Source: Sulfurimonas sp. MAG313
Lineage (GTDB): Bacteria > Campylobacterota > Campylobacteria > Campylobacterales > Sulfurimonadaceae
NCBI RefSeq assembly: GCF_029216045.1
Contig: NZ_JAEMVE010000146.1
Location: forward strand, 1 to 36,134
Direction: 5' to 3'
Length of the DNA: 36,134 nucleotides
The translations under genes were made by a program, and so were the position numbers. The notes beneath the pieces were generated by a model. That model did not search any database. It saw only the letters and a list, made by a program, of their open reading frames with translations, and had not been told where the DNA came from. Of this stretch, positions 9,199 to 31,104 are shown in pieces (the stretch's first letter is position 1; each line of letters starts with the position of its first letter).

Positions 9199-10794
9199 TT
9201 AAATAGAATAAGGAATTTCAATTATAAAGCGTGCCCCTTCATGGTAGTTATTATCAAGTTCAATAGAACCTTTGAGCTGCTGTGTTACAAGGTTATAAGT
9301 GATGTTTAAACCTAGTCCTGTACCACCTTTATTTCGTTTTGTCGTGATAAAAGGCTCAAATATTTTATCCGAAATATAAGGGTCTACCCCTTTGCCCGTA
9401 TCAGAAAATATAAGTAATACCGTATCTTCTTTATGTTCAGTCTTTAAATGAATTTCCCCTTTGTCTTCATTGTCAAAACCATGTAATAAGGCATTTTGTA
9501 ACATATTTACCACAATCTGAGAAATGGCTCCTGGATAAGAATTCATAGATAATTGTTTATCATCTAAATCAAGAATTAAGTCTATTGGTCGGTGCTTAAG
9601 TTCATTTTTAAAGGTGGAAACAACTTCTATTAGATACTCATTTAATTCAAAAATTCGTTTTTCTTCTGAACTTTGATCAACAGAAATTTTCTTAAAATTA
9701 CGTACAAGTGACGCGGCACGGTCAAGATTTTTTATTAATATATCATCTGCCTCACTGATGGTTTCGATAAAGTGATTAAGGGCAGTTTTAGAGAGTTTGT
9801 TTTGCTCTAATAGCTCCGTTAATGTTTTTATTTCATTTTTGAAAATAGATGCGGCGGTTATGGAAATCCCAAGAGGAGTATTTACTTCATGAGCCACTCC
9901 TGCTACCAAGTTTCCAAGTGCAGACATTTTTTCGGATTCAATGAGCTGAGATTGAGCGCTTTGTAAGCGCTCTAAACTTTCTTGTAATTCACCTGTTCTG
10001 TCTTGTACTCTTTCTTCAAGCTCGTTAGTGAGTCTTTCAAGGTGGGACTGGTAGGTGCGCGAAATTGTTTCAGCTTCTTCTCTTTGTCGACCTCTTTGCT
10101 CTATTTTTTCAAGCATGGCATTAAAATCATCATAAAGTTGACCTACTTCGTCACCATACATTTTTTGTGCTCTGGTAGTATAGTCTTCGGATAAGGCAAT
10201 GGTTTGTGTAATTTTAGAAAGTGTAATAATAGGAAGTGTAATATACTTTTGCAAACGAGAAATCATTATAAATGAAAATAAAATGATAACGATTATCCCA
10301 CCCATTAATATAAAGGCGTGGTTAAGAGTTTCTTTAGCTACACTCGATGTCGATATATGAAAAAGCATCCCACCATAAAGGTTTTTATTATGTTGTACAC
10401 GTGAAAAAATAACAAGTTCATCTTTTGTAAAAACAATACTTTCTTTAAAGGAGTTAATCTTTTTAAACTTCATTTTTTGCTTTTTATTTATGGAGTAAGA
10501 AGCAAAAACGTTGCCTTTTTCGTCATACATAACGGCTGAATTGATATTGGGGATACTTTGCAACTTTGTTAAAATCTCAGTAGCCCCTGATACATCTGAA
10601 AACAAGAGAGGAGTAATGGCGTAATCTGAGATTAAACCTGCTTGCAAGTTGGATTCATTTAATAAGTCTTGGGTATTTTTTTGGTAATTCATAAACAAAA
10701 TCAATGAGGAAAAGACACTTAAAGAAATAAATAAGATGGAAACAATAGCTAAAATAAGTTTTAGTCTTATAGAGAAATTTTGGAAGGTATTCAC
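9199..10794 (-). CDS. CHASE8-like/HAMP sensor histidine kinase of a YfiR-linked operon
   Basis: Domain order: transmembrane helix about 12-34; periplasmic region 35-158 whose start (QAGLISDYAITPLLFSD, then ATEILTKLQSIPNINSAVMY) resembles the CHASE8 sensor of YfiN/TpbB; second helix 159-179; HAMP about 181-234; coiled coil 236-288; phospho-acceptor H302 in GVAHEVNTPLG; and an ATPase domain with NMLQNALLHGF, DTGKGVD and GGTGLGLNI. The start is GTG 10794, six bases after AGGAGGT, overlapping the YfiR-like stop as GTGA. It is the last gene of the operon. I infer that the neighbouring YfiR-like protein binds its periplasmic domain and that it phosphorylates the receiver of the first gene's product. 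CHASE8 assignment is from recall, not a search. Confidence 0.83.
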   Translation of the reverse strand: MNTFQNFSIRLKLILAIVSILFISLSVFSSLILFMNYQKNTQDLLNESNLQAGLISDYAITPLLFSDVSGATEILTKLQSIPNINSAVMYDEKGNVFASYSINKKQKMKFKKINSFKESIVFTKDELVIFSRVQHNKNLYGGMLFHISTSSVAKETLNHAFILMGGIIVIILFSFIMISRLQKYITLPIITLSKITQTIALSEDYTTRAQKMYGDEVGQLYDDFNAMLEKIEQRGRQREEAETISRTYQSHLERLTNELEERVQDRTGELQESLERLQSAQSQLIESEKMSALGNLVAGVAHEVNTPLGISITAASIFKNEIKTLTELLEQNKLSKTALNHFIETISEADDILIKNLDRAASLVRNFKKISVDQSSEEKRIFELNEYLIEVVSTFKNELKHRPIDLILDLDDKQLSMNSYPGAISQIVVNMLQNALLHGFDNEDKGEIHLKTEHKEDTVLLIFSDTGKGVDPYISDKIFEPFITTKRNKGGTGLGLNITYNLVTQQLKGSIELDNNYHEGARFIIEIPYSI

Positions 10795-11307
10795 TTTATT
10801 ACCTCCTGAGCAGATCTTAATAAAAGGTGACTAATATGCACCTTTGAATCTTGAGCTAATTTATTATTAATGATATATTTTATTTTATTATTCTGTACAA
10901 ACATAACAATCATTACATTTTTAGGAATATTCATATGATTATCGCTGACCGTTAATACAGACTGACCTTTAAGAGATAAGAGAACCTTATTGATATCTTG
11001 TGTTTTTTTTCCTAAAAATAACAATTGGCAATGTGGTATATTGGTTTCATCTTTGATGCTTATAAGCTCTACAGATAATGTTTTGAACCTTTCATCCTTG
11101 TAAATATTTTTTAAGGCTTTTGCAAAAACTTCATCTTTTAAAACACAGACAAGAAATTTCTTGTGTTCATTTTTTTGGCCACTGAATGAGATGAGTAAAT
11201 TTTTCCAAAAAGACGACTTTGATTTGTACTTCAGACACTGCATAAAGATGTGAATTAAAAGAAAGGATAACCATACAAATCAAAAAAACTTTAATTGAGT
11301 TTTTCAT
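10791..11307 (-). pseudogene. YfiR-family (DUF4154) periplasmic protein, single-base frameshift
   Basis: The frame from ATG 11307 encodes a signal peptide (MKNSIKVFLICMVILS, ending near LYA) and the start of a YfiR domain (VQIKVVFLEKFTHLIQWP). It then hits a stop just after a run of seven A (minus strand; plus-strand T run 11170-11176). Removing one A joins it to the rest of the domain (NEHKKFLVCVLKDEVFAKAL, LLFLGKKTQ, SVLTVSDN, IKYIINNKLA, HISHLLLRSA), for a 171-residue product of normal length. The ATG overlaps the stop of the upstream regulator (ATGA), and the 3' end overlaps the kinase start. In Pseudomonas, YfiR inhibits the cyclase YfiN from the periplasm. The break may be sequence error, recent mutation or phase variation; the open part alone (from 11243) would lack secretion. 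Confidence 0.8.
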
Positions 11308-13022
11308 GACAAAGGATTTTCTTCAAGTAATAAATCAGGTTTTGGCTCAGAAATATAATATCCTTGAGAATATTCAATCCCTAATTCATTTACAATATCG
11401 AAAATTTCTTTATCACAAACAAATTCAGCAACTAAGGATATACCAACATTGTTAGCAAAATATACGATACTGTCAACCATCTTTCGTGACATTTCATCTT
11501 TAAGGTTTTTAATAAAATACCCATCAATTTTGATGGAGTTTAATTGTAAATTTAAAATATTAGCAAAATTTTGACATTTAGCTCCAAAGTCATCAAGTGC
11601 AATACTACAACCAATTTCTTGAAGTTGGGAAATATTTTTTCTACTGTTTGGAATACTATCTAAAGAATTGTTTTCTAGAATCTCTAAGATAAGTCTTGAA
11701 GGTTTAATGTTATGTTTTTTTAAAACACCTTCAACAAAGCTAGAAAATCCTTCGTCTTGTAAATCATGGGTAGTAATATTAATTGAAAAATAGAGCTCAT
11801 TTTGAGAAAAGACCTTCGCACTTTTTTCTAACATAATGTGCGTAATATCTGATAAAAGACCTGTTTCCTCAGCTACTGTTAAAAAGGCAAAGGGCGAAAT
11901 GACTTCATCTTCTTTTAACATTCGAACCAGACATTCGTATTTTTCAATTTTTTTGGTTCTATTGTTATAAATAGCTTGAAAATAAGGAACTAAACGGTCT
12001 TCTTTGATAGCGTGTTTAATCTCTTTAAACCATTTGACATTATTTTGGATGTCGAGCTGTACCTTCATGTTCTGGTGATAGAATTGTATTCGGTTAGATG
12101 AGATTAAGCGAGCTTCTTTGATGCTTAAATCAGCCTTGTTAAACAAGCCTTCTGTTTCATCTTGAACTACGGCGATAGTAAAGGTGATATTAAAGTCAAT
12201 ATCGTCATGGGTAAAAGAAGAGTTTAAAAACTTTTTTTGAATAGAGCTTATGAGGTCTTGTGTACTTTGTTGGTTTGAGTCCTCTCGTATAAGAACAAAC
12301 TCATCAACACCGATATGGTATAACTTATTACCTTTTTTTTCTAGGAGCTTTAGCACATAGGCTATCTCTTTTAAAATGTAGTTTCCCTGCTCATATCCAT
12401 ATAAATCGTTTATATGTGAAAAACGATCAACGTTTAGTAAAATAAAGGTGATGTCTTGCATATCAAGTAGGTCATCTTGTAGCTTGTGTCGATTATAAAG
12501 ATTGGTCAGTGGGTGTAAAATGATTTTCTGATATAAGGCTTCTTTTTGAGTATTAGACTTTTGTATATCTGCATAATTATTAATAGCAAGTTTTACGGAC
12601 CCGTACAGTTTATCCGCATTTAATTCTGTCTTTTCTTTATAATCGTTAATATCATAATGATCAATGACATATTTTTCAGGTGCTTGACCAGACTGACCTG
12701 TACGAATGATAATACGCATATGAGGGTTAAGAAGTTCTTCCCGAATATATTGGGTAAGTTCAAGTCCCGCGTGCGCTGTTTCCATAACAACATCTATTAA
12801 GGCTACGGCAAAGCTGTCATCATGTTCAAGAAGTTCACGGGCCTCTTTTGCCGAGTAAACAGAGGTAAAAGACATAAGCTTGTTTTGTATGGTCAGATTT
12901 TTCAAGGCAAGACGTGTGATATCGTGAACACCATGGTCATCATCAACAATAAGTATCTTCCATGGCTTTTGAGTTATTACCGTAGACGTTTCTTCCTCAT
13001 CTTGAAATAAAAAATCTTCCAT
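11304..13022 (-). CDS. Response regulator with receiver, GGDEF and EAL domains
   Basis: This is a c-di-GMP output protein of 572 residues. The receiver spans about 20-150 with IVDDD at 26-29 and acceptor D77 in ALIDVVMET. The GGDEF domain (about 170-310) has the family's LTNLYNRHKL start, but the signature reads IGVDEF, so cyclase activity is doubtful. The EAL domain (about 325-565) keeps E-x-L (ECLVR), LILEILENN, ALDDFG, KIDGYFIKNL, AEFVCDKE and QGYY, so it looks able to hydrolyse c-di-GMP. It is the first gene of the operon and its stop overlaps the YfiR-like start (ATGA). I infer that the downstream kinase controls it by phosphorylation. No DNA-binding domain is present. Confidence 0.88.
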   Translation of the reverse strand: MEDFLFQDEEETSTVITQKPWKILIVDDDHGVHDITRLALKNLTIQNKLMSFTSVYSAKEARELLEHDDSFAVALIDVVMETAHAGLELTQYIREELLNPHMRIIIRTGQSGQAPEKYVIDHYDINDYKEKTELNADKLYGSVKLAINNYADIQKSNTQKEALYQKIILHPLTNLYNRHKLQDDLLDMQDITFILLNVDRFSHINDLYGYEQGNYILKEIAYVLKLLEKKGNKLYHIGVDEFVLIREDSNQQSTQDLISSIQKKFLNSSFTHDDIDFNITFTIAVVQDETEGLFNKADLSIKEARLISSNRIQFYHQNMKVQLDIQNNVKWFKEIKHAIKEDRLVPYFQAIYNNRTKKIEKYECLVRMLKEDEVISPFAFLTVAEETGLLSDITHIMLEKSAKVFSQNELYFSINITTHDLQDEGFSSFVEGVLKKHNIKPSRLILEILENNSLDSIPNSRKNISQLQEIGCSIALDDFGAKCQNFANILNLQLNSIKIDGYFIKNLKDEMSRKMVDSIVYFANNVGISLVAEFVCDKEIFDIVNELGIEYSQGYYISEPKPDLLLEENPLS

Positions 13023-13155: not shown

Positions 13156-14080
13156 TTATGAATTTATCTGTTTAAGAGCCGCTTTGATAGCATTTAGATA
13201 AGACTTAGTGGAGGGAAATTTGTTCTTATAGGCAATATCAAAAGCCGTTCCATGATCTACTGAAGTTCTAATTATAGGGAGGTTTAAAGAGATGTTAATA
13301 CTTTCTTCAAAGTATAAGGCTTTAAGAGGAATGAGCCCTTGGTCATGATACATGCATACATAATGTTGATACTCTTGACGCATTCTTTGAGTAAAAGCGG
13401 TATCCGGAACCATAGGTCCAAAAAAAAAGATTTTTATCTAAACTTTCATTGGCACGTTTTATAGCCTTAACAATCTTTTTTTCTTCATCTCCTAAAACTC
13501 CTCCATCACCGGCGTGAGGATTTAAGCCTAAGACAGCAATTTTTTCAGAAGGTATGTCTTTGGCTAAGTCCAGTAGAAATTGTGTTAGTTTTTTAGTGCT
13601 GAGACTTTTAGCAACGGCGTGTAAAGGGATGTGCTCTGTATATAGGGCAACATACATTTTCTCACATCCAAGCATCATAATAGCTTGGGCTTTAAACCAG
13701 TCTCGAAGCATATCGGTATGGCCCTTATACTCTATTCCTGCTTCAAACCATGCTTCTTTATGTATGGGTAAGGTAACAATAGCGTCAGCCAGTTTGTTTT
13801 CACAAAGCTTTATCGCTTTTTTAAAAGATTTATAACTGTATAAACCACTTTTTTCACAGACCATACCTGGCTTAAGTTCAAACTCGCCTTTGATAGGATA
13901 AATGTTGAATGTGGAAGGCACAGATATATTAAGTTTATGGGCAACAGATTCAAGCATTCCTTGGGATATACAATAGATTGGCTCAGCAATTCTACACACT
14001 TCTGCATGGGCTGCCAAGGCTATTTCTATGCCAATTCCGTTAAGGTCGCCTATACTAATGGCTAAAACATTTTTGCTCAC
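13156..14080 (-). pseudogene. pdxA: 4-hydroxythreonine-4-phosphate dehydrogenase PdxA, single-base frameshift
   Basis: PdxA oxidises 4-phosphohydroxy-L-threonine in vitamin B6 synthesis. The N-terminal part (14080-13343) carries SIGDLNGIGIE, KGHTDML and LGLNPHAGDGG; the C-terminal part (13413-13156) carries [11 protein letters not shown] and [10 protein letters not shown]. Together they supply the three metal-binding histidines. The frame changes at a run of nine A (plus strand 13420-13428). With eight, [11 protein letters not shown] reads through to give a 307-residue protein of normal length. The start is GTG 14080, overlapping the pdxJ stop (GTGA). Because B6 synthesis normally needs PdxA and both parts are otherwise perfect, I favour a sequencing or assembly error over a true pseudogene. 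Confidence 0.9.
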
Positions 14081-14877
14081 TTAAGAAGCTCTTTCATATC
14101 TAATATGGCTTGTTCCAATCCTGTGAAAACGGACCGTGCAATAATGCTTTGACCAATATTGAGTTCATTTATAGGTTCAATGTCTTTAATTGGATGCACA
14201 TTTTGATAATTAAGACCATGTCCTGCCGCTACCAAAATCCCTTTTTGATGAGCTAAATATGCCGCGTCTTGAATTTCTTCAAGAGACTTAAATAGTAGTT
14301 GCTTAAGTTCATGACGTGGAAGTTCTAAATCTTTAATACTGTGGTGTGTTGTTGCTAATGGAGTGTTTAACATGGCGTAGATATTAGCGTAGCTTCCTGT
14401 ATGTAGCTCAACCATATCTATATCTAGCTTAGCTGATTGTTCTATCACTTCACTATTAGGGTCTATAAAAAGAGATACATCAATCTCGTGAGACTTGAGT
14501 TTATCTACCGCTTCTTTTATCTTATCAAATTGTCCTAATACATCTAATCCACCTTCTGTTGTCACTTCTTCACGTTTTTCTGGCACAAGAGTGGCTCGAT
14601 GTGGTTTTAACTTACATATAATATCAATAATAGCGCTGTCAATAGAACACTCAAGGTTAACAGGTAAGGCTGAATTAAACATAATCTTTTGTGCATCTAA
14701 GTCATTTATATGTCGGCGATCTTCTCTTAAGTGTATGGTTATCTGATCCGCACCCGCACGTTTACAAATACCAAGAGCATCAACAGGATCAGGGTCATTA
14801 ATTTGTCTGGCTTCTCTAAGTACCGCAATATGATCGATATTTACCCCAAGTTGCATTGTCTTATGTGTCGTTTGCAT
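14077..14877 (-). CDS. pdxJ: Pyridoxine 5'-phosphate synthase PdxJ
   Basis: PdxJ closes the pyridine ring of vitamin B6 from deoxyxylulose 5-phosphate and the PdxA product. It is a TIM-barrel enzyme; visible blocks are LGVNIDHIAVLREAR, GADQITIHLREDRRHI, LVPEKREEVTTEGGLD, ELHTGSYA and VAAGHGLNYQNV, covering substrate and phosphate sites. The length is 266. AAGGA lies six bases before the ATG. Its last four bases overlap the start of pdxA, so the two consecutive enzymes of the pathway are coupled. Both are separated from the signalling operon downstream by about 130 bases. Confidence 0.96.
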   Translation of the reverse strand: MQTTHKTMQLGVNIDHIAVLREARQINDPDPVDALGICKRAGADQITIHLREDRRHINDLDAQKIMFNSALPVNLECSIDSAIIDIICKLKPHRATLVPEKREEVTTEGGLDVLGQFDKIKEAVDKLKSHEIDVSLFIDPNSEVIEQSAKLDIDMVELHTGSYANIYAMLNTPLATTHHSIKDLELPRHELKQLLFKSLEEIQDAAYLAHQKGILVAAGHGLNYQNVHPIKDIEPINELNIGQSIIARSVFTGLEQAILDMKELLK

Positions 14878-30508: not shown

Positions 30509-31104
30509 GTGAGCTTAAAAGAAAATATAGATATGGTAAAAGAAGAGTTGAATCAAGAAGAAAAACTTTTTGAATCTGCTGTTAAAACAGAACGTTTTGT
30601 GAAAAAATACAAAACACCTTTAGTAAGTACACTAGTAGCCGTGGTTCTTGTCCTTGTTGGAAAAAGTGCCTACGATATGAATGTTCAAAATTCTATCACT
30701 TCTTCTAATGAGGCGTATTTAACCTTGCTTGAGTCTGCTGAAGACACAAGTGCGGCTAAAATCTTAAAAGAAAACAATCGTGCCTTATATGATGGATGGC
30801 AATTACAAGTTGCCTTAAAGGCAAAGATGAGACCAAATTAGCACGTCTTGTAAATTCATCTTCATCGGTTGTTTCTGACCTTGCTCGTTACGAATTAGCT
30901 ACGTTAAAAAAGGATAAGGCTGCATTAAATACGTATTCTCTTTCTCAAGACGCAGTTTTAAAAGACTTAGCTATTTTAAATGAAGCAGTCTTGTTAATTC
31001 AAGAAGGTAAGACAGAGGAAGCTCAAGCTCGTTTAAAGCTTATTGATGAGAAGTCTAACTTACATAAAATGGTAGTGATGCTACAGCATTATGGTGTAAA
31101 GTAA
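30509..31104 (+). pseudogene. YfgM-like membrane-anchored tetratricopeptide protein, single-base frameshift
   Basis: The N-terminal part (from GTG 30509, five bases after AGGAG) has a charged start and one transmembrane helix at about 37-52, like YfgM. The frame ends at 30841. The rest of the protein (KDETKLARLVNSSSSVVSDLARYELATLKKD onward) is in the next frame to 31104. Adding one A in the short run near 30817-30819 would read ALKGKDETKLARL and give a 198-residue protein, close to YfgM in length, with helical repeat-like segments. It abuts the BamB-like lipoprotein gene with no gap, the arrangement of yfgM-bamB in E. coli. The frameshift may be sequence error; the YfgM link is structural and positional only. 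Confidence 0.65.

Follow-up and report, generated by a model that had tools for sequence, protein, structure and literature searches.

A YfiR-like protein, a CHASE8 histidine kinase and a predicted c-di-GMP phosphodiesterase regulator share a conserved operon in one family of Campylobacterota

On the minus strand of a contig of Sulfurimonas sp. MAG313 (NZ_JAEMVE010000146.1, positions 1 to 36,134, hereafter the window), the three genes spanning positions 9199-13022 encode successively a response regulator, a YfiR-like protein and a sensor histidine kinase. This arrangement is real and conserved, and the three proteins likely form a transenvelope two-component system, in which a periplasmic YfiR would control, through the CHASE8 domain of the kinase, the hydrolysis of cyclic di-GMP (c-di-GMP) by the regulator. 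We give this mechanism, taken as a whole, a probability of about 60%.

First, the composition anticipated by a sequence-only reading of the same DNA (a YfiR-like protein next to a CHASE8-HAMP-histidine kinase and a receiver-GGDEF-EAL protein) was recovered with Pfam, which yielded DUF4154, CHASE8, HAMP, HisKA/HATPase_c and Response_reg-GGDEF-EAL, the matches of all three proteins being far beyond chance. The regulator (11304-13022, minus strand, 572 residues), described from Pfam, residue conservation and sequence matches in the PDB, is made of a receiver domain (REC, residues 23-131, phospho-acceptor D77), a GGDEF domain with the degenerate motif GVDEF and an EAL domain (residues 334-560). 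The kinase (9199-10794, minus strand, 531 residues) comprises a CHASE8 domain (residues 43-136) between two transmembrane segments, a HAMP domain (183-233) above its cut-off, a weakly matching HisKA (293-331, with H302) and a HATPase_c (423-529). Profile searches bore out both CHASE8 (E-value 5e-12, 46.3 bits for a cut-off of 27) and DUF4154 (PF13689, E-value 3e-21), the latter carried by an open reading frame of 150 residues (10791-11243, minus strand) which contains the body of YfiR and exceeds the cut-off despite an incomplete N-terminus.

The regulator was compared with its counterparts in other genomes. Receiver residues D27, D28, D77 and T108 were found in all 22 regulators and K129 in 21 of them; D77, already singled out by the sequence-only reading, is thus the invariant receiver aspartate. 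With the receiver aspartate, acidic pair, threonine and lysine on one side and the H-box histidine and the N and G boxes of the kinase on the other, the set of two-component residues is complete. In the EAL domain, E363, N415, E447, E450, D477, D478, K498, E533 and Q553, which we take to have catalytic or metal-binding roles, are invariant in 22 of 22 regulators. Conversely, a true GGDEF motif occurs in none of the 22, being replaced by GVDEF or GIDEF in the genus of the window and mostly by EADIF elsewhere. Since all of them combine a full set of EAL active-site residues with a degenerate GGDEF domain, the predicted output of the regulator is likely c-di-GMP hydrolysis. The closest solved relatives of the regulator are GGDEF-EAL proteins, of which PA0861 is the best match. 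The degenerate GGDEF domain could also be that of a c-di-GMP receptor similar to LapD or FimX, with both domains inactive and an output exerted by binding: FimX and LapD are found among the relatives, and the EAL motif itself reads ECL in the genus of the window. However, LapD and FimX are not known to have an invariant set of EAL residues such as the one kept in full in these 22 proteins, and we consider a receptor role quite improbable. A second REC-GGDEF-EAL paralogue (locus L026 of the window genome, 2816-4516, and its orthologues), 37-39% identical to the regulator of the window, was detected in 6 of 6 genomes of the genus.

We then considered the kinase and its sensor domain. Helices resembling transmembrane segments flank CHASE8 in the predicted model, where the domain adopts a PAS/Cache-like fold, and the cytoplasmic part has an H-box (H302) and N, G1, F and G2 boxes. 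Within the periplasmic domain (10387-10671, minus strand), the segment TPLLF (residues 61-65) aligns with the AAVVF segment of Escherichia coli DgcN, and the phenylalanine of this segment is present in 25 of 25 kinases. According to the corresponding study (PMC3375315), genetic evidence indicates that YfiR represses YfiN via this CHASE8 AAVVF segment, its YfiR contact in Pseudomonas aeruginosa. A search of plasmids returned only short matches to the HAMP region.

For the YfiR-like protein, comparison of a single sequence with the PDB gave nothing relevant and a profile was required; the profile built from 22 YfiR relatives matched P. aeruginosa YfiR with an E-value of 5e-8. Four relatives of the genus possess the system, referred to as G001, G002, G004 and G005; between them, their contigs bear the names Arcobacter sp. 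NORP14, Sulfurimonas sp. UWMA-0129, Arcobacter sp. LH_M16 and Campylobacterales bacterium. The fold predicted for the G001 orthologue (mean predicted local distance difference test score of 70) has 15 significant matches in the PDB, all of them YfiR, the best E-value being 8e-8 and that of the next fold 6e-3. The Cys71-Cys110 pair of P. aeruginosa YfiR is also kept in the relatives. Profile, alignment to E. coli YfiR and DgcN, and fold therefore agree with the YfiR and CHASE8 identities first proposed.

The intact gene order regulator-yfiR-kinase, with overlaps of four bases, was found in G001 and G004. Searching 228 genomes of the family, the same order was also detected in 17 genomes of two other genera. 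Window included, the order noticed by the sequence-only reading thus occurs in at least 20 genomes of this family, distributed over three genera, this count being a lower bound, with CHASE8 loci fetched in part. The trees of the kinases and of the regulators agree in their three main clades, which would be expected of partners. Adjacent genes need not belong to one pathway: the kinase might phosphorylate other regulators and YfiR might serve another protein. The window genome contains other kinases with catalytic cores up to 53% identical and several REC-GGDEF-EAL paralogues, and in G005 no regulator adjoins yfiR and the kinase gene. Since the order and the tight overlaps are retained in 20 genomes of three genera and the main clades of both trees match, such a separation of the three proteins appears very improbable.

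We specifically analyzed yfiR in the window, where an indel breaks the gene. The frame at 10791-11243 lacks the signal peptide and the first 19 positions of the DUF4154 model, and a search of the genomes indicated that its real homology only begins at about 11177. The three genes had been described as overlapping by four bases each. Both overlaps exist (GTGA at 10791-10794 and ATGA at 11304-11307), but translation from the ATGA at 11307 proceeds in another frame than that of DUF4154. This frame (11167-11307, minus strand) has 46 residues, MKNSIKVFLICMVILSFNSHLYAVSE...IQWPKK, corresponding to a signal peptide and a first helix that resemble the N-termini of intact relatives, and its stop at 11167 lies just past a run of seven A (11170-11176, minus strand; seven T on the plus strand), the break point of the yfiR frame. 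That yfiR was split by an indel follows from the two frames together matching the intact relatives. In the genus relatives, yfiR reads through as one frame of about 168-173 residues, G001, G004 and G005 having an intact gene with a signal peptide.

A sequence error probably accounts for the split, or else a very recent change, because two other genes are also broken in the same 36 kb. The pdxA gene (13156-14080, minus strand) is found as two open reading frames broken at a run of nine A and is intact in G001, G002 and G005, and the gene at 30509-31104 (plus strand) appears as two overlapping frames in the window and as a single frame of about 200-226 residues in 5 of 5 relatives of the genus. 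Together, the three breaks point to indel errors in the contig. Programmed frameshifting at a conserved slippery site in yfiR was ruled out, the A run not being conserved among the relatives. An old pseudogene was likewise ruled out: the ratio of non-synonymous to synonymous substitution rates (dN/dS) relative to G001 is 0.14 for the shifted part of yfiR, for 0.13 in the CHASE8 domain.

From these elements, the following mechanism can be proposed. YfiR, secreted into the periplasm, would bind the CHASE8 domain of the kinase near TPLLF and keep the kinase in a single state of signalling, most likely the inactive one by analogy with YfiN. A signal removing or altering YfiR would shift the state of HAMP and of the kinase, H302 would be phosphorylated and the phosphate would pass to D77 of the co-transcribed regulator, whose EAL domain would then hydrolyse c-di-GMP, its GGDEF domain having no diguanylate cyclase motif. 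If so, YfiR would govern the removal of c-di-GMP by phosphorelay rather than its synthesis by direct contact, and its action on c-di-GMP might thereby be reversed.

Several observations weigh against this mechanism. In G005 the nearest relative of the regulator is a paralogue, with 39% identity, yfiR and the kinase gene standing alone. In genome G479, the regulator and the CHASE8 kinase overlap by 4 bases without any yfiR (L065 5207-8511). In G002, yfiR is cut in frame to 58 codons (L021 2374-2546) with its start and stop overlaps retained, in an assembly of low coverage (4x in the contig name). With yfiR split in the window, cut down in G002 and absent from G479, kinase and regulator can persist without YfiR, and the YfiR switch may be incomplete in the window strain or in its assembly. 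Finally, among the YfiR relatives the Cys145-Cys152 pair of P. aeruginosa YfiR is not conserved, and neither is part of its hydrophobic pocket (L166, I169, P178).

These losses would fit a kinase-phosphodiesterase pair sensing its signal directly through the Cache/PAS-like CHASE8 domain, YfiR being a dispensable remnant in this lineage. Consistently, the predicted CHASE8 model resembles ligand-binding sensors such as CitA, DctB and KinD, and in the genus of the window no TonB-dependent receptor adjoins the operon in the genomes whose sequence is known on either side of it. On the other hand, purifying selection persists on the split part of the window yfiR at a level similar to CHASE8, yfiR is intact in G001, G004 and G005, and the split in the window is probably an error of sequence. 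We therefore regard direct sensing as unlikely and retain control of the kinase by YfiR as the preferred explanation.

YfiBNR (TpbB) of P. aeruginosa and YfiR-DgcN of E. coli are alike in having a secreted protein of YfiR fold beside a membrane CHASE8-HAMP protein, an AAVVF-like segment with its phenylalanine, and control of c-di-GMP. They differ from the system of the window by a fused diguanylate cyclase in place of a HisKA/HATPase_c kinase acting with a separate predicted phosphodiesterase. Relative to YfiBNR, the present operon also has no adjacent YfiB and its YfiR lacks the Cys145-Cys152 pair. In the window, no gene for a YfiB lipoprotein was found in the operon, whose neighbours are pdxA/pdxJ and a convergent gene resembling a decarboxylase. 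Regulators of the RocR and PvrR type (REC-EAL or REC-GGDEF-EAL phosphodiesterases) likewise associate a receiver with a complete EAL active site; here, by contrast, GGDEF is degenerate and the partner kinase would be under the control of a YfiR module.

The sequence-only reading had pointed to no experimental description, in this phylum, of a YfiR switch rewired through phosphorelay to c-di-GMP breakdown. The association of YfiR and CHASE8 with a histidine kinase is not new. Malone et al. (2012, PMC3375315) reported from in silico work that, in diverged Yfi systems, a sensor histidine kinase, HPT or GGDEF-EAL can stand where YfiN has its GGDEF domain, and that such systems usually lack YfiB. 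The window thus resembles these systems, with YfiR beside a CHASE8 kinase and YfiB missing. NCBIfam also has models for the same three component types: NF053590 (TonB receptor TOL_0244), NF053591 (YfiR-like TOL_0243) and NF053592 (kinase near YfiR-like). Of all families, the window kinase matches NF053592 best (E-value 1.5e-43, 148.9 bits), below the curated cut-off of 194, and the intact YfiR of G001 obtains 99.2 for a cut-off of 125 with NF053591. The window kinase is accordingly a relative of HK_near_YfiR_like and not a member as curated. Curators had already noticed the kinase variant, and probably the association with the receptor. In this NCBIfam set no response regulator model was seen, and the genus of the window has no receptor beside the operon.

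What stands of the proposed rewiring towards c-di-GMP breakdown is the complete EAL domain, the degenerate GGDEF and the conserved operon, but not its novelty as a YfiR-CHASE8 kinase. A dedicated REC-GGDEF-EAL regulator and a TonB receptor, both found here, are not mentioned in the main text of PMC3375315. In the open-access literature we found no experimental description of the arrangement in Campylobacterota and, among papers on YfiR with TonB, DUF4154 and CHASE8, no account of a REC-GGDEF-EAL phosphodiesterase regulator in such an operon or of its conservation in the family. To the kinase idea, already predicted in 2012, the present analysis adds the enzyme partner, the conservation in one bacterial family and a neighbouring outer-membrane receptor.

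This TonB-dependent receptor, overlooked by the sequence-only reading, adjoins the operon in most relatives. When 397 evenly sampled genomes of the class were searched, CHASE8 exceeded its cut-off at 20 places. Among the loci fetched from other genomes of this sample, a TonB receptor was present within three genes in 14 of 14 with DUF4154 and CHASE8, against 0 of 4 with CHASE8 and no DUF4154. Over all annotated loci, a set biased towards frames of kinase size, the proportions were 44/53 and 1/9, respectively. Each genome contains 3 to 11 Plug domains, so that adjacency by chance would only amount to a few percent. The receptor accompanies DUF4154-CHASE8 whatever the output fused to CHASE8, including GGDEF, GGDEF-EAL, kinase, hybrid kinase and SpoIIE. 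On this gene neighbourhood, the receptor is the best candidate for the input given by YfiB in P. aeruginosa, and in the relatives it would probably deliver the signal in place of YfiB. Its steady presence suggests what might act on YfiR in systems devoid of YfiB, a point that the 2012 paper (PMC3375315) leaves open. In the genus of the window, the receptor relatives located elsewhere are about 30% identical.

By hand count, yfiR is missing or broken in 3 of the 9 operons without an intact receptor and in 0 of the 11 that have one (Fisher test, about 0.07). A link between loss of the receptor and loss of yfiR is suggestive only, one of the three cases being a probable sequence error.

More tentatively, the YfiR-CHASE8 pair of Campylobacteria might be a general module from the outer membrane to the cytoplasm, in which a TonB receptor instead of YfiB controls YfiR and outputs are freely exchanged (diguanylate cyclase, kinase with phosphodiesterase regulator, SpoIIE phosphatase, hybrid kinase); the window would then represent a branch whose operon has lost the receptor. 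We regard this extension as possible rather than probable. It would provide TonB receptors with a second inward signalling route besides the FecA-FecR type. The spread of a receptor-YfiR-CHASE8 unit over many outputs in Campylobacteria was not found described in the open-access literature.

In 5 of 5 genus genomes having the operon, it is immediately preceded by pdxJ-pdxA (vitamin B6 synthesis; 13156-14877 in the window), pdxA being directly upstream. We treat this conserved context as lying outside the system. P. aeruginosa YfiR binds vitamin B6 or tryptophan, B6 only weakly with a dissociation constant (Kd) of 35 mM (PMC4887326). Vitamin B6 sensing by the present YfiR was set aside as a curiosity in view of this Kd, of pocket residues that are largely unconserved and of the absence of the pdx context at the loci seen in other genera.

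Another DUF4154 protein of the window genome (842 residues; L026 7391-11317, G000:C242) is a fusion with a histidine kinase, and its gene is flanked by those of a TonB-dependent receptor and of a stand-alone receiver. Lastly, CHASE8-HAMP-SpoIIE phosphatases were found beside a TonB receptor and DUF4154 (L037 5633-7165, L040 8784-10478, L050-L056, L062, L068 and L069); these are YfiR modules with an output of the partner-switching type, and small proteins follow several of them.

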